A DNA stretch of 64,000 bases from Hydractinia symbiolongicarpus. Lineage: Eukaryota; Cnidaria; Hydrozoa; Anthoathecata; Hydractiniidae. Below, piece by piece: positions 1-62,698 of the stretch (position 1 is its first letter; the number at the start of each line of letters is the position of its first letter). The translations under genes were made by a program, and so were the position numbers. Below the pieces are notes generated by a model. That model had not been told where the DNA came from and made no database searches. It worked only from the letters and a program-made list of their open reading frames with translations. The stretch lies in contig NC_079876.1 in assembly GCF_029227915.1 (NCBI RefSeq), positions 27,501,828 through 27,565,827 on the forward strand, written 5' to 3'.

Positions 1-1459
1 CTTCTTAGCTGGATCAAAGTATTGTAGGACAGGTGTAGATGCTATAAGTGATTTAGCATCTGAAAATGCAGTCTGTTGTGTTGAAGACCATGTGAACGCC
101 ATGTCTGTTTTTGTTAGTTCAGTCAATGGCCGGATGGATGACAGTGCTCAAGTTCTGGCAGTAAGGTGATAAGTAGTTGACCATTCCAATGAAGCGTTGC
201 AGGCTCTTTTTGTCGTGTGGTTTTGGCATCTGTAGGATGGCATCAGTTTTCTCCGGATCAGCTTTGATGCCATTTTGTGTAAGAATGTGTCCTACAAATT
301 TCTGTTCTTTCTGCTTGAATTTGAGTTTTGCTGGGTTGAATCTGATGTTCTTGGTTCTAGCTCTTTCCATTAGTGCAATGAGATTTTTGTCATGATCCCT
401 TTCTGCTGTCTGGTATGTTTCCCCACAACCATATACTAGGATGTCATCAGCTGTGGGTGCGATACCTTCTAGTCCTTCTAACGCTGTCATGAGTCTCATT
501 TGAAATTCCTCTGGAGCACTGTTGATGCCAAATGGAAGTCTTTTCCATCGATAACGTCCATAGGTAGTGTGCATTGTTGTCATATCTGATGATTTTTCAT
601 CTAACGGCACGTGAAAATACCCATCCTTTACATCAATTAATGTGAAACATTTTGCATTGTTCAGTTTGTGTAGATGTTCATTCAGTGTTGGCATTTGGTA
701 TACAGGTCGTTCTATTGCTTTGTTTATTGTTTGGCTGGGGTCTATGCATACACGAAATTTGTTTGGTTGTTCTCTGCAAAGTATGTTTGAGCACCATGGA
801 GTTGGTTGTGTCACTTTTTCCAGTATTCCTTCTTTGACATATCTGTCTATAGCTGCTTTTTCTTTCCCACGTTTGCTCAGTGGTATCCGGTGAATTGGCA
901 TTTGAACTGGTGTAACATCATTTTTTACCCGGAATGATACTGGTGGTTGGAGACAGCCAACACCGTTAAAGCTATCTTTATAGCATTCAATTAATGACTC
1001 TTTGGTCAGCGGATGGGTTGTATCTAAAGGCTTTGTTTTGTTAACATGTGTTTTTGGTTGGCTAGTGGTTGTTGGCTGATTCAGGTTGCCTTGCTGTTGC
1101 AGAGAGTAGATATCCCCTGTGTTGATTGTCATGATGTTCATGTTTACACAGTCTTTACCGGAAAGGAGAGCTGGCTTTCCGATCATGTCCTTCGAGTCAA
1201 GGACTTGGAACACTAGACTATGATACTTTTTGAACTTTTCGCACAAAAGGGTAATTTTCCCGATGGGTCTGATTGGCTCACTTTTGTTCCCATAAGGAAG
1301 TAATACACAACGCGATTTCTGAAGCTCGATATCAGGAAAGTATTTCTGGACGACCTGGTGCGATATGGTGTTGGATGTAGCGGCGGAGTCGATTTGGAAC
1401 TGTAGGTTTACAAAGTTTCTCCCTGTTGATGAACACAAAAGCTTTGAATAAAATTTTTC
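1..1459 (-). pseudogene. Ty3/gypsy-type pol (protease, reverse transcriptase, start of RNase H), broken and cut by window edge
   Basis: Read on the minus strand. Right after the gag stop codon the same frame stays open from 1459 to 119. It holds a retropepsin-like site (IDSAATSN, with Ala in place of the usual Gly of D-S/T-G) and then a reverse transcriptase. The RT palm shows FTLIDVKDGYFHVPL, LPFGINSAPEEFQ and the catalytic TADDILVYG (Y-x-D-D position occupied by T-A-D-D), followed by FVGHILTQNGIK, typical of Ty3/gypsy RT. The frame stops at 119, but residues typical of the RT/RNase H junction resume in another frame from about 130 down to base 1, so a small frameshift breaks this copy. Integrase and the 3' LTR, if present, lie outside the window. 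Family assignment is firm; exact clade is not determined. Confidence 0.88.
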
Positions 1460-2560
1460 CTAATTTGATTGGGATTGTCCATTCCGTTGATCTGTTGCGT
1501 ACGCTGTGCTGTAATACAGTGGTTGTTCATCAGTGTAGTATGTTGGTTGTTGCTGCTCAGGTGATTCTGTTCTGCTTTCTGGTTGATGATATGTTGATGT
1601 TGCATGAAGGTGGTTGGTCGACTTTTGCATACCCTGCGGATTGCTGTTTGGTTGTGGAGGACGTTGGTTATTTCTTCTGTTGTAGTTGGGTCTGTTGTAT
1701 CCCTTGTTGCCAAGGTGGCTGACATTTTGTTGTTCTAGACATACTCTTGCAAAGTGGTCAAATCCACCACACCTTGTGCATTTACGTCCATTAGCTGGGC
1801 AATTTGCCCAAGGATGTGGTCCTTTATTGTCTCCACACCAGTGGCAAGTATTTGGCTCACGTCTCAATTTCATGTCTCTGTGTTTCTTTCTTTGTTGTGG
1901 TGGTATTGTTGCTTTTGTCCAGTGAACATTCTCTTCTGTCCCTTTTGATGCATCACTGATGAGTTTGTTTGTCACTCGAGCAGATTCCATTGACTTGGCC
2001 TCTGCGACAACATCTGACATTGTTTTCTGTGTGCCATCTGTTTTCAGATGTGTTTTTAACAGTTCAGTTCGTGCTGTGTCCTCACAAAGTCCAAAGACAA
2101 ACTTATCACGACACATAATGTCTGTAATTTCTCCATATTCACACAGGCTTCCGGCTTGTCGTATTCGGACCTCCCAATCCTGGACTGTCTCATCTTGATT
2201 TTGGGACGAATGCCAGAATTTGAACCGATCAGTCATTAGGGTAGATCCTGTTGTTCCTGTGTAATGTGTGCGTAGACGATTCATCCAAATCCACGGTTTT
2301 TTCTTATCATCTACTGGAATGGATGGCTCAATGGTATAACGTATCACCTGGAGAGCTTCATCTGGCATTGAAGATCTCACTGCAGAGATCTCCAACAAAG
2401 GTTGCTTGTAATGTTCTGCTTGCTCAGTTTGTGAGTCTTTCTCCAAATTTCTGTAGTTCGACTGAATGCAATAGTCATTGAATCTAAGTTCAAAATTCTT
2501 GAAATTTTCAGATATGTTGCCAGTTAACTTCAATTCTGGTCGTTTATGTGATGTATTCAT
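1460..2560 (-). CDS. Ty3/gypsy-type gag polyprotein with zinc knuckle
   Basis: Minus-strand ORF of 366 codons from the first true ATG at 2560 (MNTSHKRPELKLTG). The frame is open a few codons further upstream, but without an ATG. The N-terminal two thirds are capsid-like helical sequence. The nucleocapsid end carries a perfect CCHC zinc knuckle (CTRCGGFDHFARVC) preceded by a second Cys-rich motif starting CHWCGDNKG. It ends in a Gln/Asn/Pro-rich tail. The terminator is a single TAG at 1460-1462, and the pol frame follows in the same phase, so gag and pol are separated only by this amber codon. A tRNA primer-binding site lies four bases upstream of the ATG. The gag reading frame is intact, so this copy may be fairly young although its pol is broken. 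Confidence 0.85.
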   Translation of the reverse strand: MNTSHKRPELKLTGNISENFKNFELRFNDYCIQSNYRNLEKDSQTEQAEHYKQPLLEISAVRSSMPDEALQVIRYTIEPSIPVDDKKKPWIWMNRLRTHYTGTTGSTLMTDRFKFWHSSQNQDETVQDWEVRIRQAGSLCEYGEITDIMCRDKFVFGLCEDTARTELLKTHLKTDGTQKTMSDVVAEAKSMESARVTNKLISDASKGTEENVHWTKATIPPQQRKKHRDMKLRREPNTCHWCGDNKGPHPWANCPANGRKCTRCGGFDHFARVCLEQQNVSHLGNKGYNRPNYNRRNNQRPPQPNSNPQGMQKSTNHLHATSTYHQPESRTESPEQQQPTYYTDEQPLYYSTAYATDQRNGQSQSN

Positions 2561-2564
2561 TTTT

Positions 2565-2577
2565 ACTTCTGACACCA
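2565..2577 (-). promoter_or_regulatory. Primer-binding site matching tRNA-Leu 3' end
   Basis: The minus strand reads TGGTGTCAGAAGT immediately before gag. This is the exact complement of the 3' end of metazoan tRNA-Leu (...ACTTCTGAcaCCA). It begins with TGG, as LTR-retrotransposon primer sites do, and lies where a PBS is expected, between the 5' LTR and gag. The match covers 13 bases; the next bases (AAAAA) do not continue the tRNA complement. Confidence 0.65.
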
Positions 2578-2730
2578 CATTACAACTTAGAAGGATGAGA
2601 AACTGGACGCCATCTTAATTCGTACTAAAAACGTGTTACCGAATTGCCGTGACCGACATATATATAAACAAACTATTATATATCAAAATGGTAGCCGCAA
2701 TAGTGGTATAGTGCAACATGGTAACTGTAC
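2578..2730 (-). repeat. Probable 5' LTR of the gypsy element (boundaries unresolved)
   Basis: Sequence between the primer-binding site and the resumption of LINE coding sequence at about 2735. On the minus strand it has a TATA-like stretch (TTTATATATATGT, around 2657-2670), suitable for an LTR promoter. A TG start is possible near 2718. No TG...CA boundary next to the PBS is clear, and the second LTR is outside the window, so length and ends are inference. Confidence 0.35.
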
Positions 2731-26708: not shown

Positions 26709-29700
26709 TCAGTCTGCTTTTCTTAGAATATTCTTTATTATCCATTTTTTGTACTCGGCTACGTTTGTGTACAAACCATACGAATCCGGCCTCGCACACT
26801 CATAACCGGAAGACACGATTCCTGTCGCATACCATCGATCTGTAAAAAGAATTGCAACACAACAGTCCAGTGCAGGTAGCAATGAGCACATATGAAAGAA
26901 GATAATTTTTTATCATAAGATGACAGACGCAAAATATCTTATGGACGTTTCGTTAGCATCATGGGAAATCGTGTACGAATTATGCATGTGTATGTTGAAA
27001 GTAAATTCATCACGCCAAAAAAAGAATTTCTGACACAGAACGGACTGCAATCAATAATAAAAATGTTTAGACAAAGCCAGTTTTTCGCCATTTTTCAAAT
27101 GTGGACAAAAGCGCCTAATAGACAATGCTACTTAGGCTACGCGTACAGTGTATAAAGTAGCATTCTCTAGCATGCCCGCTCACCGAAGTAATACACGTAG
27201 GGGCCAACGAACAACAGTTAGCACATTTCTAAGTTCACTTTGAGCATTTGAAAGTTCAAAATGCGTGAATCTAATATTACGCAATTACTTGTGGCTGCGA
27301 ACTTCGAAATTAGCTGACTTGTCTCAACATATTGGACAACATAACAAGATTTTAGATTGTAATGTCTAATAACAGCTTTAAAAAAGATTATGTGAATTCC
27401 TCCCTATACAATACTCATACAAACACCTCAACAATGTAATGCAATGTTCTCTGTTAAGCATGAAGAAAGGGCGTAAAAACCCCAAGATTTTAAAACTCGT
27501 TCCATGCAATTGTTTATTCACTTTTACTTGCATTTTTAGATGCATATGTTATGTAATTTTGTGGATAGACGAAAAGTTTTCAAAGACAATGAACACCTTT
27601 TTCTCTTACAAACTAGTCTATTTTTACTGCCTGAAATAATCGGAAGAACGGAAATGTTATTCGGATTGAATTTCGGATTGTTCGGATTTTCTACTTTAAT
27701 TTTTTCCTGCATGTGACCAAGCAAAAACTTACCTTCTTTGTTACAAACAAGTCCTCCACCACTATCATAGTTGCACGCATCTATGCCGCCATTTTTATAA
27801 CCAGCACAGATTAACTCTTTTGGGTTCACTGAGTTATTGTAAGCGACTTCTATGTTACAGACAGAGTTCGGTACCGTGTAAACTTTCGCGTGACGTAATT
27901 CATCCGGTTGCGTACCATTATAAGAGGTGTGGCCCCAACCGACTACGTAACAGTTGTAATAATCGTCGATACGTTTGTTCCTGTCGGGTAGACAAACAGT
28001 TGGCCGTGTTGTTACGTTGAACTTTATTGAATGTTTCAGCTGCATTAGAGCTGGAAGTAAAAAAAACGTGAAGCCTAGATAATAGATGTCATTTTTTCTT
28101 TGCAGGTTGGTAAAAATATTTTTGACAGAAAAAAACGTCTTTATTACTCAATGTACAGTGGAATCCCCCTAAAGCGGACACCCTATAAAGCGGACAGCCC
28201 TCTAAAGCGGACAAAAATTTTTGCACCGGCAGAATTTAGGTCAAACTCTCATAAAAAAATCTCTATAAAGCGGACGATTATAACGCGGACACTCTATAAA
28301 GCAGACAAAAATCTTTGCACCAAATGACAGTTTCCCTTATAAACACTCCCTATAAAGCGGACAATGGAAAAATAACGAGATGAAATGTCACTTTTTCTTA
28401 AAATTTAAACCATTTTACTTAGTACATCTTTGAGTTTTGTTATTTACCGAGTCCAACACTGTCCTTATATTTTTCTCGGCCCACTCAACTGCCTTTTCAA
28501 CACCAATTAATTGGTACTGGGCAGGAATTTCTAGTCCGTAGCCAGCACCACGGTTCACTCGCTTCCCAGTCACTTTACATCCGATGGTACAGTTAGGAAG
28601 CGACATGAATTTGTTGAATAGTTTGCTAAGGTTTTTAGGGACGTGCCCAACTACTTTATCGTCATCTGTAACAGCTACAGCAAACTTGTCATGTTCGTTA
28701 TCTTCTTCCGCTTTTAAACAAAAATTCTCTTCTCCGACTTTTGGGCTCCATATGTCCATGTAAGCATGGTATCCACGGATAAACGAGTCGAAGCGATATT
28801 CTTTCTGTTTTATAAGGATAATCTCAATCTGTTTGTCAATGTTTTTGAGAAGCATCTCATTTAGTTGAACGTTCGACATATCTGTGTTCTCTTCAGCTTC
28901 TTTAACTTTAAAATAGCATTCGAATCGTGAAGACATTGCAGCGTAAAATTTTAAACTGGAAAGAATTTCGAATTTTGAATTTCTAATGCACATTCAACAT
29001 GGCAATGTCGAAGCAGCAGCTTGCTGGTAAACTAGCGAAGAAAACTTTATCATTAGATGATAAGATCAAGTTTTTGGATTTCGCCAAAAAAAATCCAGAA
29101 CTTGGATGTAGAAAACTAGCAGACATTTACAAGATTGGAAAGACAGCCGCAGCAAATATTTTAAGAGACGAAAAGAAAATTCGTGAACAACATGAAATTT
29201 TTCGTGAGAAAACAAAAAAACGTAACCGCCATGGCAAGTATCACAAGATAAATGAGATCTTATTCGAATGGTACAAAAGATGTTGCGCTTCTAACATCTA
29301 CCCTAATGGTGTAATGCTTAAAGAGGAGGCGTTGGAAATTAAGGAAAAACTTAAGAACAGCGATTTTGATAATTTCTCCGCCTCTGACGGTTGGTTGGAT
29401 CGTTGGAAAACAACATATTCCGTCAAAGAACGTCGTATTGTTGGTGAAGCTGGTGACGTTTCTACAGAAACGGTTACTTCCTGGATGGAGAGGATCAAAG
29501 AATTGGTTGAAGGTTATTCACTAGAAAATATTTGGAACATGGACGAGTCTGGCTGTTTTTTTAAAGCTCTACCGGCCAAAGGGTTAGTGGAAAAAGGAAA
29601 ACAAGCAAAAGGTGGGAAAAAGTCAAAGCTTAGATTAACTGTCGCTTTTTTTGTAAATGCAGCTGGGGAAAAGATCAACCAGCCTGTTGTTATCTGGAAG

Positions 29701-32700
29701 AGTAAAGTCCCGCGTTGTTTTAAAAAATTGAAAGATCCATCGCGTCCAGCTAACGTTCACTACTTTTCAAATCCTAAATCTTGGATGACATCTCAAGTAA
29801 TGGAAACTGTACTGGCACGTTTTAACAGAAAACTTTTATTTGAGGACAGAAAAGTTATTCTTTTTCTGGACAACGCCACCTGTCATCCGGAGTCAATGAT
29901 AGGCCAGTTTTCACAAATCAAAATCATTTTCTTACCGAAGAACACAACTTCAAGGCTTCAACCACTCGATGCGGGGATCATCCAAAACTTCAAGGTGAAG
30001 TACAGAAAAAGACTGGTCAAATACGTGCTTGCAAGGATCCAGGAGAATAAATCTGCAACTGAAATTATCAAGAGCGTAGACATACTTATGGCTATTCAAT
30101 GGGTTCAAGATGCGTGGAAAGAAGTAACCAACTTGACCATCAAAAATTGTTTCGAGAAATGTGGCGTAGTTCAAGGAGAAAGTGAATTGATGGAAGATCA
30201 AGAAGATGACTTGGAATTTGAAGCTCTGGTGAAGGAATTAACTGAAGATATGTCTGCTGCAGAATACATCGATTTTGACGCCGATGTTCCAGCTTCGGAG
30301 CCAAGAATTAACGAATTAGAAATAAATTGGCGACATCAAATCCGAGAAGCTAGCATTAACGCAATTGAAAATCCAGAGATGGCATGTCAGGTCGAAGAGA
30401 TTTCCGAGGATGATGATGAGAGTGAAGACGTGGTTGAAGAAGAAATGCTTGGTTTCACCGAGCTAATCACTATGCTTGATAAAATTAAGCGATCTACTAT
30501 TTTTGATGATACATGCCAAGAAATGTTGTCAACCATTACGAAAAAGATTGAGGAACTTCAGCTTCAAAATAGAAAACAATCCTCAATCAAAGATTATTTC
30601 AAATAGGGAGAAAAACGTGTATTGAAAGACCTATAAGATAAATGAAATATATCTTCGTAATATAACTTGGTTTCTTAGTTTATAACCTTAGCAACACTTA
30701 AAGGTTGGTTGCAACACCGACAAATTTGAGCTGCTAAACTTACTTTACACAGCCAACTTGGGTTCTTTGCTCGATAAGCTAAATCTATTGATGTTGCCGT
30801 CTACCCTAGTGTTGCAAGTCACCCCATGATACCCGCCAGTACTACAAAAAAAGCTTTTTTGGTCAAAATTAGGTCTAAAACTAATTTTTTGGTCAACTTC
30901 CTATAAAGCGGACATCCCTCTAAAGCGGACACTTTTTTTTGCACCAATGGTGTCCGCTTTAGAGGGATTCCACTGTACCAACTTGCATAGAGACAAGAGT
31001 GTGTCCTGTCTTCACTTAAGATTGTTTTTCATTCATCGCATAATCACAATTGATACACACGTGTGATAATTGATAGCATGTGCATCAAAGTATTTTCAAT
31101 CACATGAAAAAAGATATTTCGCGATACTAAATTATTTTACTATTTACAGCTACGTAAGGCATAACCTCTATAATAATAAAAGCTGTATTTTGTCTGTCTG
31201 CGAAAAAATATCGTGTTACAGAAACACGAAATGTGATATATAAAGGACGTGAACCCCTTTGGTTTTCCCGTATACGTTTGTCTGCCACCTAAAATAGTAC
31301 CGCAAGTAGCGAGACGCATGCCTAAGGTTATAAAAAGTGCGGGCAAACCCGTGGATGTTTACATGGGCAATCGATTAGTATAGCAATAATTCCTGAAATT
31401 CTTATGATCAAGAAAGTTGACTATTTATTTAAGCTCTTATTCAGCAGTTATTAAATTAGTGTGTATGCAAAAGTTAAACTTCAATCGATTACATAATTGG
31501 CATTTAATAGTGGACTGATTTTTCATGTATTGGTGTTATTATTGGTACTTCTTTATCACAACAGATACAATTCAAAACAACGTAACGTACAGTGACAGTT
31601 TGTTTACGTAATTTTGAAAATTACAGCTATTTTTTGACAATGAATTTTACGGTAAGAAATTTTCGCAAAACCCAATTTTTTTGTAATTAATTTCCCCGAA
31701 TTAATTTTTGCAAGTGAGAGAAAGCAGTAAAGTTTGCGGAAAATAGCATTCGCGGTTGGTTGGACAGGTATTGATTAAGCATTGATCACTTATTCTACGA
31801 AAGATTATTTTGAATCATTTGATCTGCGAAGCTGAAATGTGTGAAATGCTTCAGAAATTTGTTGGTTCTGCCCAAAACTAAAGACATCATATGTTCATTA
31901 TTAAAACCATATTTGTTCTTTTTGCCCGTTCTTCAAAATGATAGGCTTGCGGAGCTGCTCTTATTTTTGTTATATGTTTTCTCAAACGCAAAGATGTTCA
32001 TGGTTTATGCAAGAGAGTGACATAAGCTATTATTTAAAAAATATAGATTTGAATGAAGCTATACTACATCAGAGGATTACTTAACAGTTGTATAATGTTT
32101 GCAATTTTGCTGAATTAAATTTCCAGGGTCACAAAAACTCCCTGATATTTCGTAGAATTCAACTTCACCAATCTCTTAAAAAACGCAAAATTATACTTCC
32201 CGCGAAAATCTCTGGCGGTAAGTATTTTTTTAAAAAAAGACTTCGAGATATTCATTTCTTTTTTACAATAGTGTAAAATGGAACAGGAACACTTCTAAGA
32301 AAGCAAATCCGAACACAGTGTCACATAAATAAACTTAATCTGCTTCTATGATCATGGAAATGCTTCTATGGTTATTAAAACGCATCTATTGTCATGACAA
32401 ATTACGAAAAAATGACAGTTTTTAGCCCTCCTGCTGGTGCAATATTATCACTGACAACAGATTAACATTGCGTCATTGTTTCGTGAAGTATAGCTATTTA
32501 AGTTTTGTTAAAATGCAAATAACTTCTAACAATAAATCCATTTAACATTTACGTTGAGGGGAGCGCAAGGTAAAGCAAAGTCTAAACACATACCTATATC
32601 GTGATGTCCCATAGCCCACTGTTTTGGTTTATTTCCATAACCAGCTAGATTATAGTTGGCATGTGCAATGATTCTCTTAGCCTGTATTCGCTGTTCAGAT

Positions 32701-41684: not shown

Positions 41685-48768
<7,084 letters not shown>

Positions 48769-56163: not shown

Positions 56164-59100
56164 ATGGCAGACACATTAAAGAGTTGGTTTGGAATGGGAA
56201 AGAAGGATTCAGATGGTAATGTAGAAATATTTAATAAATAGGCGCTGACTTACAACTTCTTTTACTGTTTTTTGTATCTGTTTTCAAAGTATAACTTGAG
56301 CCTAGAGTTATACACGTTTTAAAAATTATAGCAGTCTTGGTGATAGACCTGCTAATGGCCTGAGTGAAATTTAGCTTTTTATCAGTGACTGCTATTTTTT
56401 TGTCTATTTTAAAATTACATAGACATGAAACACACCTCCAACCCATAAAGGTCATATCTTCTCAACCTGAAGCCCCTACTAAAAATCATGAAACCTAAAA
56501 GCTTTACACTTGAATAATACAAAGATCAAACTATTGTCAAAAGTGGTCTTTTTCAGTTGAGTTTTTAATATGCAACGCATTGCTAATGGCATCTCTTTCA
56601 GAGAATAAATAAATAGGATACTAGTTTATGTTGTATTTTGGTTATATTCCATTTTATAGAATGTATACAAAATTTCAAGATGAGAATATTCCTATAGGAT
56701 ACTCTTGACTTTCTGTCTAATTTCATCTGAAGTATTCTTAATTCTTATAAAAGAAGATGTAACATGTCCTATATTATACAAGTTTGTGACAGTTGCTAGT
56801 TTAAAGTTATATTTATATTTGGAAAAGCGAATCTTTATATAAAAGGACATATTCATAAAGAACTGGCAATCATGAAAAACAAATAGTTATGAAGCATTTA
56901 AACGTATATGAATTGGTAAACTTTTTCAAACAATGATCAAATCTAACTTGTTTGTATAATTATTTTAGTGGGGAGTTCATTAAATTTGTAGAAGTGGAGG
57001 ACATTAGGCATCCAAATATCATAAATATGCACAAAGTTTAATGTAGTTTAATGAAAATTAAAACACTTTTAATATACATATATACAAAAAACATTCCATG
57101 GCCACTAAACACAGTAAAATATTATCTAATATTAACAATTGGTTGCAATTACAATGGTATTGGAGTCCAGGAAAAAGATGATAAGAAAACCACTAAATAA
57201 CTCTTCTTATTAATATAGTGCAACCACCATATCCTAAGGAGGTCAAAAGAGGCAGTCATCAAAACATAGACTTTTAATATAAAAACAAATTCCTTTGAAT
57301 TTGTTTTTATATTAGGGCCGACTTGCTATAACAAGGTTCCAACTTATTTTGCAACTCATTTTATATGATAGGATCATTTACGGGGGTGTTCCCTGTTCTT
57401 TTAGGAAATTCTTTTAATTACCAGGGTTACACAAATTTAGGAGATAATATTAGGAGAATTTAAATTAGTCAAGTGTAACTTTTTAAGTGTCACAAGAATC
57501 AAATTGAATTCATCAAGTTTTTATATTTGAAGCAGATAAATATTTCGGACTTTATATTCCAGAAAATAAAATTCATAAAAAATTACTTTTAAAAATAGAT
57601 GTTACTCAAAAATTTAGCAGATTTTTAGAAATTTTTTTCAACAAAAACAAAAAAATGTTTCAGGATTATTGAAGAGGATTTTATATTTAGGATTTTTTTG
57701 GGTTGTCAGAAGGCAAGGTAACCCTGTATTAATATTTCTCTGTCCCCTTCTTTAATTAACACAAGGTGACACTAGTAATTATTATATACAAATACGAATA
57801 CACTAGTTCACAATTTTTAGCTTGTTTCAGTAAATCTTTTTTGTTACACTTATTAAGCCCTCCCCAATAACTTTATTATTACAATCAAAACAACAATAAA
57901 ATTTTAATACATAATTTATGTATTTTTTGTCATCAAACTGCAAATTTTTAAAACCCTTGGTCCTAACCATAGTGGAAACACTAAGATCCCTCCCCATAAA
58001 AAATGATGCTTTCTAGGGTGCTGAGTTTGACTCCTCAAATAAAAATTGATTCTTTAAATTCAGAAAGTCTGTGGCATTTAATGTTTGTAATCATAAAATA
58101 TATTTTTGAATACCACATTGTACTATACGTTAATTTATGTACAAATGCTGCATTTAAATCTACACTGGTTTTTTAAAATGTTAAACACAACATATTACAT
58201 ACTAATAAAAACATGGCAGACAATACCCTCTAACCATGAAAATCCAATTCTTTTTCCTTTGTTGGGCTTGTAGATAAGAATCTATATTGGAGACTGATTT
58301 CAAGCCCTGTTAGGTTCCTTATGATAGTTTAGGTTAGGTCAGGTTTCTTTAATCATTTTTGTTAAAAAAAATATGTCTGTTTCTGTCTTAACGTAATTGT
58401 TTTTAATTTCCATTTTCTTAGAAACTATGATTGATGTGCAACAAAAACTTGCTCAGCTGTCCAAGAATGTTGACTCTTATGATGCTACTGAACTTGCTGC
58501 ACAGTTAGAAAAAATCACTAAAACATTGTCATCTCAGGCAAAAGTAAACGATCCTGTTACGGATAGTGGCGATCAAGAGCCACCAATGACATCAACGGTG
58601 TATAAGTTAAAACCTTTCAGCACCACACCAATACCTCAAAGTATGCCTTACAATGAGCGACAAGTTATGAATTCTGCAGGAGGTTATTCATTTCAAGTGT
58701 GCGATTTCATGAAGCTTAAACGTTTCTTGGTGATTGGTTCGGAAAGCGGCACATACTATACAACTTCAAAAGATATTCTCTTCGACAGTGTGCAGTGTGT
58801 TAAAAGACTCATCAAGCAAGGACATGGTCAAGCTGTGTTGGATTTGTTAGAAGAATACAGCACAGCAGGAAGAATTGCCAATGAAAAACCCATACTGACT
58901 TCTCTGATGACATGTGCGATGTCTGCAGATACAGAAATTCAACAAGCGACTTACAAGAAGATTTCCACTATTTGCAACATTCCCACCAAACTGTTTTTTT
59001 TCCTTGATTTATGTCAAACTGCTATCAATGCAAGGCGAGCATCCAACCCACCCCAACCCCAACCTCAAAAGAAGAAAGAGGTGTTGCTCAAGTCAATGAA

Positions 59101-62100
59101 AATTGAGTCTAAGGGACCTTCTGAGAATGTTGACACCAGTATCGAACCTAGCCCTGCAAAAAAGCAAAGGAGAATGAAAAAAACTGAACAAAAATTTAAG
59201 AAGGTGAATGTTACTCCGAAAAAATCATCTGGATGGGGTCGCATGAGACGGAAAGGTATTGCATCTTTTTATACTGATGAGAAAAAAGATGCAAACCGAT
59301 TGCTTTATTTGGTGACCAAATATAAGTCCCGCCACAACTGGTCTCACAAGCAGGTTCTGGGTTATGCTCACCCCAAAATGGAAGGTGAAGAAAAGGTTGC
59401 AAAAGATCTTGTCCTTACGTACTGCGCACGTGGCTACCAAAAATACAAACTTGTAGCAGACAAGTATGCGAGCACACCAGGGATTAGTAATATTGTCTCT
59501 GAAGTAATTGCTCACATTGATGTTCTTCATAAAGTCAGCCTGTTATCTTATGAAAAAGAAGGTGACGAGGAGCAGCTTCTGGAGTATCTTAAAAAGTATG
59601 GTAGACGCAATGAACATGATGATTTTACAATACTCCCATATCCCCGCAGTCTTGAACCAGCACCAAACTCAAATGGAAGACGAGTTCCCTTCCAACTTGT
59701 GCGGGAACATATCCCCACCAATTTCCTCAAATCGAAAAAGGTTTGTTAAATTTTTAATTTATGCTGTGATGTGAATTTAGTGACGAGATAAATATTTTTG
59801 TAAACGTTTTGGAAAAACAATTTAGAAAGTGGATTAACTAATACTTTTAGGTTTGGGAAGCAATGTTGTTGGATATGCCAATGACAGCCATGATTCGCAA
59901 CTTGGGTAAAATGTCATCACTTGGATTATTCCAAGAGTCCGGCGAAGAGAATGCTAATGTCAGCATTATCAAGGCTGCACTTTCTGATGTAAACCGATTG
60001 AAAAAGGCTAAAATTCATCCCATCAAGGTAAGCTTTACTTAAACACTACTTTTCACTGCATAAAATCTCTGAAGCTCACATTATTCCTTTATTTTCATAG
60101 ATCTTACTTGCTCTACGCGTGTATCAAACTGGTCGTGGTGATAAAGGTGACTTAACATGGCCTGTAAATGAAGAAATTTGTACTGCACTTGATGCGGCAT
60201 TCTATTTGACCTTCAGAGTAAGTGTTTTACTTTGGAAATTTATCATTCCTTGAACATGATAGTTTAGTTGGCGACGTTTCGGGAGATCCTTCGCCTACTG
60301 AACTATCATGTTCATGAAATGATAAACTTTCCACAGTGATATGAATACTGAACAGACAAACCGAATTAATATCTTCAATAGTAAGTGTTTTATTTGCAAG
60401 AATTTCACACCTTGAATATTGTCAGAAAAGTATGTCAGTAAAATGAAAACCAAAGTCTGAGTGATCATCGTGTTCTGGCATTTCCAGTAAAATAATTTGT
60501 TTTGCTTTCATGGTAAGATTCTATAGCGTTTTTGATATTATAAAGGGGCGTTATAAAGAAAGGCATTAAAAATAAAAAGGGAGAAATTTTATTTTAAAGT
60601 ATTATTATGTTTTTTTAAACTAAAAAATGAAACAAGAAAGGCTGGTAGAACGTTTGTCATAAGATTGAGGGGGTGACGAAGGCTATTTATTATTAGAAAA
60701 CATTAAATAATAGCATTTAAAAATCATTTTTGACTTTTAGTAGCACATTTATTAGAAGGGACCATTAAGTAAAAGATTAAGGGTATAAATATATATGTTA
60801 TTTTTTTAGAGTACAGACCTGAGCAAAAATTTCAAGACAGGCAAGAAATTTATGTTGTGCTTAGATGTAAGTGGATCAATGACATGGCAGGGTTGTTATG
60901 GATGCGAGAACATGACTCCCGCCATGGCTTCCATGGCAATGGCAATGGTCACCTGGAATATTGAAGAAGAGTGTGAGATTATGGCTTTTGGGGGCCAATT
61001 TGTGTCACTGAAAGAAAAAGTTAAGAGAGATATGACTCTGAATGAAGCACTGAGAGCTACCAGTCGGGTGTGTATTCCCCATTTCTTTTTTAAATTTACT
61101 TTGGATGTTGCGAAATTTCAATCTCTTTTAGAAACAACAAGCTAGCTATTTCCTTTAATATGACCTATTTTGATCACTTCTTAACATATTATTTTTATTA
61201 TTTAGATGTCATTTTTATTAATACGATCTGTGATCTGTGCAAGAATGAAAACCGATTTTTTAGCGTACTTTTTTGTTGTTTCGTAGGCTGAGGGAGGGGG
61301 CAGAGGAGTGAGGGGGCGGTGTGATTACATGTGATTAAATGAAAAATTTCAGCCAAGGCTAAAATTTCAACTTGGTGGCGAAAATTTCATCTTGCCTACA
61401 ACTTAAAATTTACTCACATTAAGAATTGTGATTACATGAAGATATTTTCAAACCGGGTTGAGATTTCGCCCAGTGCGAAATTTTAACTTGGGATAAACTG
61501 GGCTAGGGTTTTTTCCCCAGGGTGAATGGTCATGTAATTGCAAAAAAAAAAATAATCTAGGTTAAGAAACCATGTGCGTGCTGTGAGCATGCGAAGATGT
61601 AAATATCGACTTAACAAATCCAAGAAAAAAAATAGACATCTTTTTCAGTTTTGTTAGATGTATATAGCTATTAAATTTGTTAAAATACAATGCAAGCTTT
61701 TATTTGTTTGTTAAGATAAGCTGTGTCTGTTTACAAAATCCTGTGCAGTATACTGCGCTACCATCTTTTCTGTGATAGTTTCTGATAGTTAAAACTTACT
61801 TATATTCTATAATTAGAACATGCTAGTCGTTAACCTGTGGATAAATCCACGGGTTCGCCCGTCCTTTATTAACCCCACCTTGTGTGTCGCTACTGTTGTT
61901 ACCATTTTGCGTGACAGACAGACAGACGCATACGGGTATTATAATATAAATATTCCAGCTTGGCTGAGTTAAAAAAACTTCAGCCCAGGCTGAAATTGTG
62001 CTGAAATCTCCATGTAATAACATAGCATTTTCTAGACTGGTTAAGGTTGAGGTTTTAACCCTGATTTTCTCCATGTAACCAGCCCGTTAATCTTAAACTT

Positions 62101-62698
62101 CTACTCTGTCTATTCTCTTTCTGCATAATCCCTTCTAAAATTGTTGTCAACTTTGTTATCACACCTGAATAAAAAAGAACTTGTAATGTTATCAAGTATA
62201 GGGTGTGTCTTTTTTTCTTGTTAGAAATCCCCTTCGAACTATAGCATTGCGCAGATACATCTGTTTTATGTGCGTGTATACGGAACTAAGTGTTCCACAA
62301 GAACTCTGTTCATGTTTTTTTTTATACTACAGATGAATTTCGGTTCTACCGATTGCTCCTTGCCAATGCAGTATGCGCTCCAAGAAAACCTGGATATTGA
62401 CGTTTTTATTGTGTACACTGATTCAGACACGTGGTCCGGTCGCATTCACCCGCCCATTGCGCTGCGAAAGTACAATGCAGCTAAAGGAAAGAATGCCAAG
62501 CTGATTGTGTGTGCTATGCAAACCAACGACTTTACAATTGCTGATCCGAACGATCCCAATATGATGGATATCTGCGGTTTTGATACCAGTGTTCCGGATA
62601 TTATTTCCGAATTCGCGAAGGATACTCTAAGTGGACAATGCGATGTGTGTACTGACTGCAAAGCAGTGAAAGCAAAGATGGAGACAACAGTTGGCTAA
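56164..62698 (+). CDS. RO60: Ro60 (TROVE-domain RNA-binding ring protein)
   Basis: Six exons: 56164-56215, 58422-59740, 59851-60027, 60101-60217, 60810-61067, 62333-62698. All introns are GT-AG with consistent phase; the product has 762 residues (human RO60: 538). The first 95 residues are an extra N-terminus. The TROVE domain starts near NSAGGYSFQVCD (about 101) and runs to about 510, with SGWGRMRRKGIASFY, NWSHKQVLGYAHPK, LKSKKVWEAMLLDMP, NLGKMSS and IHPIKILLAL matching the family. The vWA-like domain follows: MIDAS LDVSGSM (D574, S576, S578), GSTDCSLPM and FIVYTDSDTWSG. Ro60 binds misfolded small RNAs and Y RNAs in its ring. A Pro/Gln/Lys-rich insertion (about 222-285, with PAKKQRRMKK, a possible nuclear localisation signal) interrupts the TROVE domain. 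Exon 2 uses a GTTTGT donor. The start ATG fits a short first exon (MADTLKSWFGMGKKDSD). Confidence 0.95.
57275..57314. repeat. Perfect 18-bp hairpin in RO60 intron 1
   Basis: TAATATAAAAACAAATTC (57275-57292) pairs exactly with 57297-57314 across a 4-base loop. Confidence 0.85.
60233..60333. repeat. Short foldback element in RO60 intron 4
   Basis: The arms 60233-60267 and 60298-60333 are complementary with a few mismatches (outer TGGAAA/TTTCCA, inner GAACATGATAGTT). The loop holds GGCGACGTTTCGGGAGATCC. It resembles a miniature inverted-repeat element. Confidence 0.7.
61320..61545. repeat. MITE-like repeat in RO60 intron 5
   Basis: GATTACATG-type ends and internal AAATTTC(A)..CTTGG motifs (AAATTTCAGCCAAGGC, ATTTCGCCCAGTGCGAAATT). 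Similar motifs at 61957-62085 (TTCAGCCCAGGCTGAAATT) suggest a second related piece. Confidence 0.45.
61828..61950 (+). repeat. Dispersed repeat with GACAGACAGACA, copy 3
   Basis: CCTGTGGATAAATCCACGGG, TTCGCCCG, TCGCTACTGTTGTTACCATT, GCGTGACAGACAGACAGACG. TGTGGATAAATCCACG is itself a small palindrome. Confidence 0.7.

Follow-up and report, generated by a model that had tools for sequence, protein, structure and literature searches.

An apparently intact two-gene Tigger/pogo transposon in Hydractinia symbiolongicarpus pairing a transposase with a HIRAN-fold protein

The 64-kb window analysed here, the whole stretch of DNA under study, belongs to the hydrozoan cnidarian Hydractinia symbiolongicarpus and contains what its sequence presents as an apparently intact, autonomous-looking two-gene Tigger/pogo transposon, in which a transposase gene lies divergently to a second gene for a HIRAN-fold protein. 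That this element represents a recurrent HIRAN-Tigger pair is very probable, with equal longest-contig sizes among its relatives suggesting that the HIRAN and transposase genes travel together.

The transposon proper spans 2820 bp (28156-30975), with a TA dinucleotide abutting each end and with terminal arms (28153-28182 and 30949-30978) that are 97% complementary over 30 nt, flanks included. Inside these ends lie two divergent open reading frames without internal stops, at 28415-28993 (-) and 28999-30606 (+), and the element ends, TA duplication, and intact divergent frames claimed in the first-pass annotation are thus confirmed. The motif TAAAGCGGACA, at no more than one mismatch, has 11 matches in the window compared with an expectation of 0.81 for the whole window, a count reached in 0 of 100 shuffles; 10 of the 11 fall in the element ends, seven on the left (starting at 28170, 28186, 28203, 28266, 28281, 28297, and 28353) and three on the right. 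These end repeats are possible transposase-binding sites. No further copy of the element turned up in the window by tblastn or blastn.

Table 1. Features of the two-gene element, in window coordinates.
Feature	Coordinates	Strand	Basis
Left TA target-site duplication	28154-28155		sequence
Left terminal inverted repeat	28156-28182	+	inverted-repeat arm, 97% complementary
Left-end array, 7x TAAAGCGGACA (0-1 mismatch)	28170-28363	+	motif scan
HIRAN protein gene, likely 154 aa from Met39	28415-28879	-	ORF, Pfam, homologue starts
HIRAN fold, about residues 60-165 of 192-aa reading	28499-28816	-	model pLDDT, Foldseek, VIA
Stretch between likely start codons, 119 bp	28880-28998		ORF starts
Transposase, 535 aa, D182/D291/D324 (DD32D)	28999-30606	+	ORF, Pfam, alignment, fold match
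PIP-box pattern QSSIKDYF, residues 527-534	30577-30600	+	pattern match
Right-end TAAAGCGGACA copies: 30904 (+), 30921 (+), 30951 (-)	30904-30961		motif scan
Right terminal inverted repeat	30949-30975	-	inverted-repeat arm
Right TA target-site duplication	30976-30977		sequence

The surroundings of the element hold several other features. A trypsin-family reading frame (27536-28147 (-), PF00089, E = 1.3e-21) adjoins its left side and possibly represents one exon of a gene neighbouring the insertion. Retroelement remains occupy 119-2614 (-), comprising an RVT_1 match (E = 6.2e-20) and an upstream frame without a Pfam match, and pieces of a Ro60 gene lie on the forward strand, with a TROVE domain at 58397-59749 (E = 5.4e-15) and the Ro60 vWA domain at 62225-62698 (E = 1.1e-41); no Rfam RNA family matched in the 64-kb window. 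At 47964-48598, frames are open on both strands over simple-repeat runs, encoding polyQ/polyT on one strand and polyL/polyV on the other.

Pfam assigns the transposase the domains DDE_1 (E = 1e-38) and HTH_Tnp_Tc5 (E = 1.6e-12), with an alignment of 28 transposases, that of the window included, showing D291 and D324 to be invariant and D182 to be kept in at least 90%, which bears out the earlier statement that this catalytic triad is retained. There are 32 residues between D291 and D324, the range given for Tigger catalytic domains in the accessible text of PMC9219625 being DD29-36D. When combined into a profile, these 28 sequences hit the DNA-binding domain of CENP-B (1hlv_A, E = 1.1e-22), and the predicted structure of the transposase (mean pLDDT 75, pTM 0.51) returns the Mos1 mariner transposase as its top fold match (E = 1.2e-4), together with 1hlv_A (E = 2.8e-3). 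The TA duplication, short inverted repeats, DD32D spacing, and CENP-B-type domain support a Tigger-type assignment, with the putative placement in the Tigger clade following the source name of the nearest proteins. These are two Hydractinia symbiolongicarpus proteins called 'tigger transposable element-derived protein 6-like', which share 99% and 93% identity with the transposase across 99-100% of its length. The 99%-identical cluster has 20 member sequences, and near-identity of this kind would be in keeping with a family of recent origin, but some of the 20 are possibly one sequence present in several databases. The NCBIfam matches of the transposase to IS630 and ZapA both lie far under cut-off and were rejected.

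The PIP-box consensus, Q-x-x-[ILM]-x-x-[FY]-[FY], describes a motif for binding PCNA, and the Drosophila pogo transposase binds PCNA, although a literature search for pogo transposase together with PCNA found nothing. Among the matches listed, 54 of the 74 transposases of at least 480 aa carry the strict pattern in their last 35 residues, whereas 0 of 1057 control stretches drawn from these sequences contain it; a looser pattern is present in 68 of 74. The pattern behind the PIP box proposed in the first-pass annotation is therefore present, and these counts support a conserved, putatively PCNA-binding C-terminus.

The second gene has a longest reading frame of 192 codons (28415-28993 (-)), exactly as first described; the protein itself is probably shorter at 154 aa, since among the HIRAN matches listed 50 of 120 homologues start at the position of Met39, with 20 more at Met47. 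A start at Met39 leaves 119 bp between the two start codons, a stretch that is a possible shared promoter of both genes. Both a profile search and a fold comparison agree with the HIRAN-like domain proposed at first pass: Pfam PF08797 (HIRAN) matches residues 82-141 (E = 2.6e-8, 34 bits against a curated cut-off of 24.7), and the predicted structure matches the HIRAN domain of HLTF by Foldseek and VIA, at about 18-19% identity over the aligned part. The HIRAN-layout motif is likewise present, the earlier version of it having one x too many. N99, the counterpart of HLTF N91, occurs in 115 of 120 sequences, and D102, the counterpart of HLTF D94, in 103 of 121, with positions paired by eye and with only those listed matches counted that have a residue at the position. 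The position of HLTF Y93 is a His in the window's protein, and the counterpart of Y72 is ambiguous. Searches with the protein or its own profile matched no solved structure by sequence, and NCBIfam gave no match for the protein. PHROGs yielded three weak hits without an assigned function. Profile and predicted fold together support a genuine HIRAN-fold protein.

The arrangement of the genes could also be read as regulatory, with the HIRAN protein controlling expression of the element or transposase dose, or dampening damage signalling, through contacts with DNA or a host protein and not with cut ends. The close spacing of the starts of the two divergent genes, about 119 bp, would suit such a role, as would a 13-residue stretch strongly conserved among the homologues listed, which may form a protein- or DNA-binding surface. 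However, the pocket residues matching those of HLTF are conserved as well, which would be unnecessary for regulation alone, and we consider a purely regulatory or host-factor role quite unlikely.

Relatives of the two proteins bear on whether the pairing recurs. Searches for HIRAN relatives gave 342 with the single protein and 1395 with a divergent-clade profile, the best 120 of each comprising 162 different proteins, and these were compared with the best 120 of 320 transposase relatives. Each protein cluster is represented by one contig size, and an equal size of the longest contig behind a HIRAN and a transposase cluster was read as the same contig, sizes rather than contig names being compared. 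Seven exact matches were found among those listed (2,795; 2,946; 8,679; 48,971; 299,093; 412,978; and 4,622,948 bp), the 2,795, 2,946, and 8,679-bp matches being among the eight top-scoring transposases; for the long contigs, equality of size denotes the same contig, not adjacency of the genes. Could these equalities be coincidental, or could the long contigs carry members of two repetitive families that have nothing to do with one another? Below 4 kb the two matches compare with 0.53 expected by chance and count for little by themselves, and the 299,093-bp contig seems to carry unrelated members, its transposase sharing 84-86% identity, and its HIRAN protein 44%, with the counterparts on the 48,971 and 412,978-bp contigs, so that this pair probably comes from two elements. 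Against such an artefact, one match compares with 0.022 expected at 4-20 kb and four with 0.002 above 20 kb, clades agree in six of the seven size-matched pairs, and in the window itself both genes are enclosed by one pair of inverted repeats, making an artefact of recurrence highly improbable. Recurrence of the pair in relatives, raised as a question at first pass, is thereby indirectly supported by the equal longest-contig sizes and the six clade-consistent pairs.

Divergence of the two proteins is correlated to differing extents, with r = 0.34 over all eight entries (reached in 1566 of 40320 permutations), r = 0.63 over six entries (17 of 720), and r = 0.85 after the post hoc removal of the 299,093-bp pair (11 of 5040). 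The HIRAN gene might instead be a captured passenger, carried without a role in transposition. In favour of this, among the matches listed 55 of 58 transposases on contigs below 20 kb have no listed HIRAN protein of equal contig size, although listing depth and the use of one size per cluster may, but need not, be the cause of these non-matches. In the six clade-consistent pairs, however, identity to the window's proteins is 0.47-0.69 for HIRAN and 0.65-0.81 for the transposase, and a neutral passenger is very unlikely because its frame should be broken at 0.47-0.69 identity, an argument from divergence and not from dN/dS.

Two further observations concern the HIRAN relatives. The clade of P0031, P0042, P0066, and P0079 shares a longer N-terminal stretch (MFETVHKVFEIVYTAMSS... 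in the longest members), and its sole contig match, at 299,093 bp, is the clade-inconsistent one. Scans of viral contigs for DNA of relatives found none, and a scan of genome contigs gave a match in a Bacteroidales MAG (L001; 37 residues, 49%) that was taken as an ordinary bacterial HIRAN.

Cleavage by transposases of the Tc1/mariner type produces short 3' overhangs that bear a 3'-OH, on the element as well as on the donor. We tentatively propose, at clearly less than even confidence, that the HIRAN protein protects such cut 3' ends from HLTF-type remodelers while the PIP box links the transposase to PCNA. The transposase would bind the repeated end motif TAAAGCGGACA, cut, and leave short 3'-OH ends, which the HIRAN protein from the divergent gene would grip on the excised element or at the donor break. 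There it would compete with host HLTF/Rad5-type remodelers, which would rely on the same domain to locate 3' ends and clear away cut complexes; the cut complex would persist until integration or gap repair because HIRAN on the 3' ends would outcompete the remodelers. The PIP box would bring the cutting or integration events to PCNA-loaded DNA. Counted in support of this capping are the HIRAN profile and fold, the conservation of N99 and D102, the size-matched pairs, and the PIP-box pattern, and counted against it are the His at the Y93 position, the ambiguity over the Y72 counterpart, the size-matching of only 3 of the 58 listed transposases on contigs below 20 kb, and the clade inconsistency of the 299,093-bp pair.

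Published biochemistry, as given in the accessible portions of the papers, bears on capping from both sides. HLTF strips Cas9 from cut DNA in a reaction that depends on the exposed 3' strand being bound by HIRAN, with the isolated HIRAN domain acting as a dominant negative for Cas9 removal, more weakly when two Asn residues are changed (PMC11237066). The HIRAN pocket of HLTF takes one dinucleotide of single-stranded DNA, and the NN90,91AA double mutant abolishes DNA binding; the domain prefers fork-like junctions, however, and 3'-end binding in duplex DNA is disputed, which counts against capping (PMC4666394). For Passer, likewise a pogo element, footprints of 0-4 bp are described (PMC9976928).

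The preference for fork-like junctions (PMC4666394, available text), together with the conserved PIP-box pattern, would favour the first-pass suggestion of fork targeting, in which a putative contact between HIRAN and transposase would direct the complex to the nascent 3' ends of replication forks, the PIP box engaging PCNA and copies being gained in replication. The PIP box could alone give association with forks or PCNA, however, and its pattern is also found in relatives that have no HIRAN among the matches listed, so that steering by HIRAN appears rather unlikely. In our analysis, 3'-end capping with protection from HLTF-type remodelling would be no worse a fit than fork steering to what has been published on HIRAN biochemistry. 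In its stronger form, which we regard as doubtful, the capping proposal would make the HIRAN protein a natural dominant negative of the 3'-end reader of HLTF, capping 3' overhangs and blocking HLTF stripping while the PIP box couples transposition with replication.

The accessible text of the pogo/Tigger papers describes no protein other than the transposase and does not address protection or repair of cut ends. A partner bearing the fork remodelers' own 3'-end reader would connect transposition, in a testable manner, both with replication and with the protection of ends. If capping holds, the protein would be a natural equivalent of the isolated HIRAN domain used in the laboratory as a dominant negative, and it could serve as an accessory factor in gene transfer with pogo-based tools; were the stronger, dominant-negative form true, the element would constitute a two-component, replication-aware cut-and-paste system.

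Among the titles and opening abstract lines listed from the open-access literature, with subscription papers and Repbase lying outside this scope, none joined HIRAN to a pogo or Tigger element or to any other eukaryotic transposon, nor was HIRAN found there together with a cnidarian, and the word HIRAN is absent from the accessible main text of the pogo/Tigger surveys PMC7325037, PMC7386202, and PMC9219625. Some DNA transposons are already known to encode further proteins beside the transposase. According to the available text of the sources, PIF/Harbinger elements need two proteins, ORF1 and TPase (PMC2836001), and the ciliate TBE and Tec elements have three ORFs (PMC7325037), with the partners in each case being other proteins, not described as HIRAN. 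Compared with the HIRAN domains of HLTF and Rad5, the window's version is a small stand-alone protein with its own helices and without translocase or RING, and it differs from HLTF in having His in place of Y93 and in sharing only the low identity given above. The Tigger family of the pogo superfamily, as portrayed in the accessible parts of PMC9219625 and PMC7386202, is alike in its TA duplication, short inverted repeats, CENP-B-type DNA-binding domain, DD29-36D catalytic domain, and length near 2.8 kb. A transposase as the sole gene is usual for Tigger/pogo, not strictly defining; whilst the family's described structure is that of the transposase, the window's element adds a divergent HIRAN gene, a second reading frame with a Pfam domain of its own.
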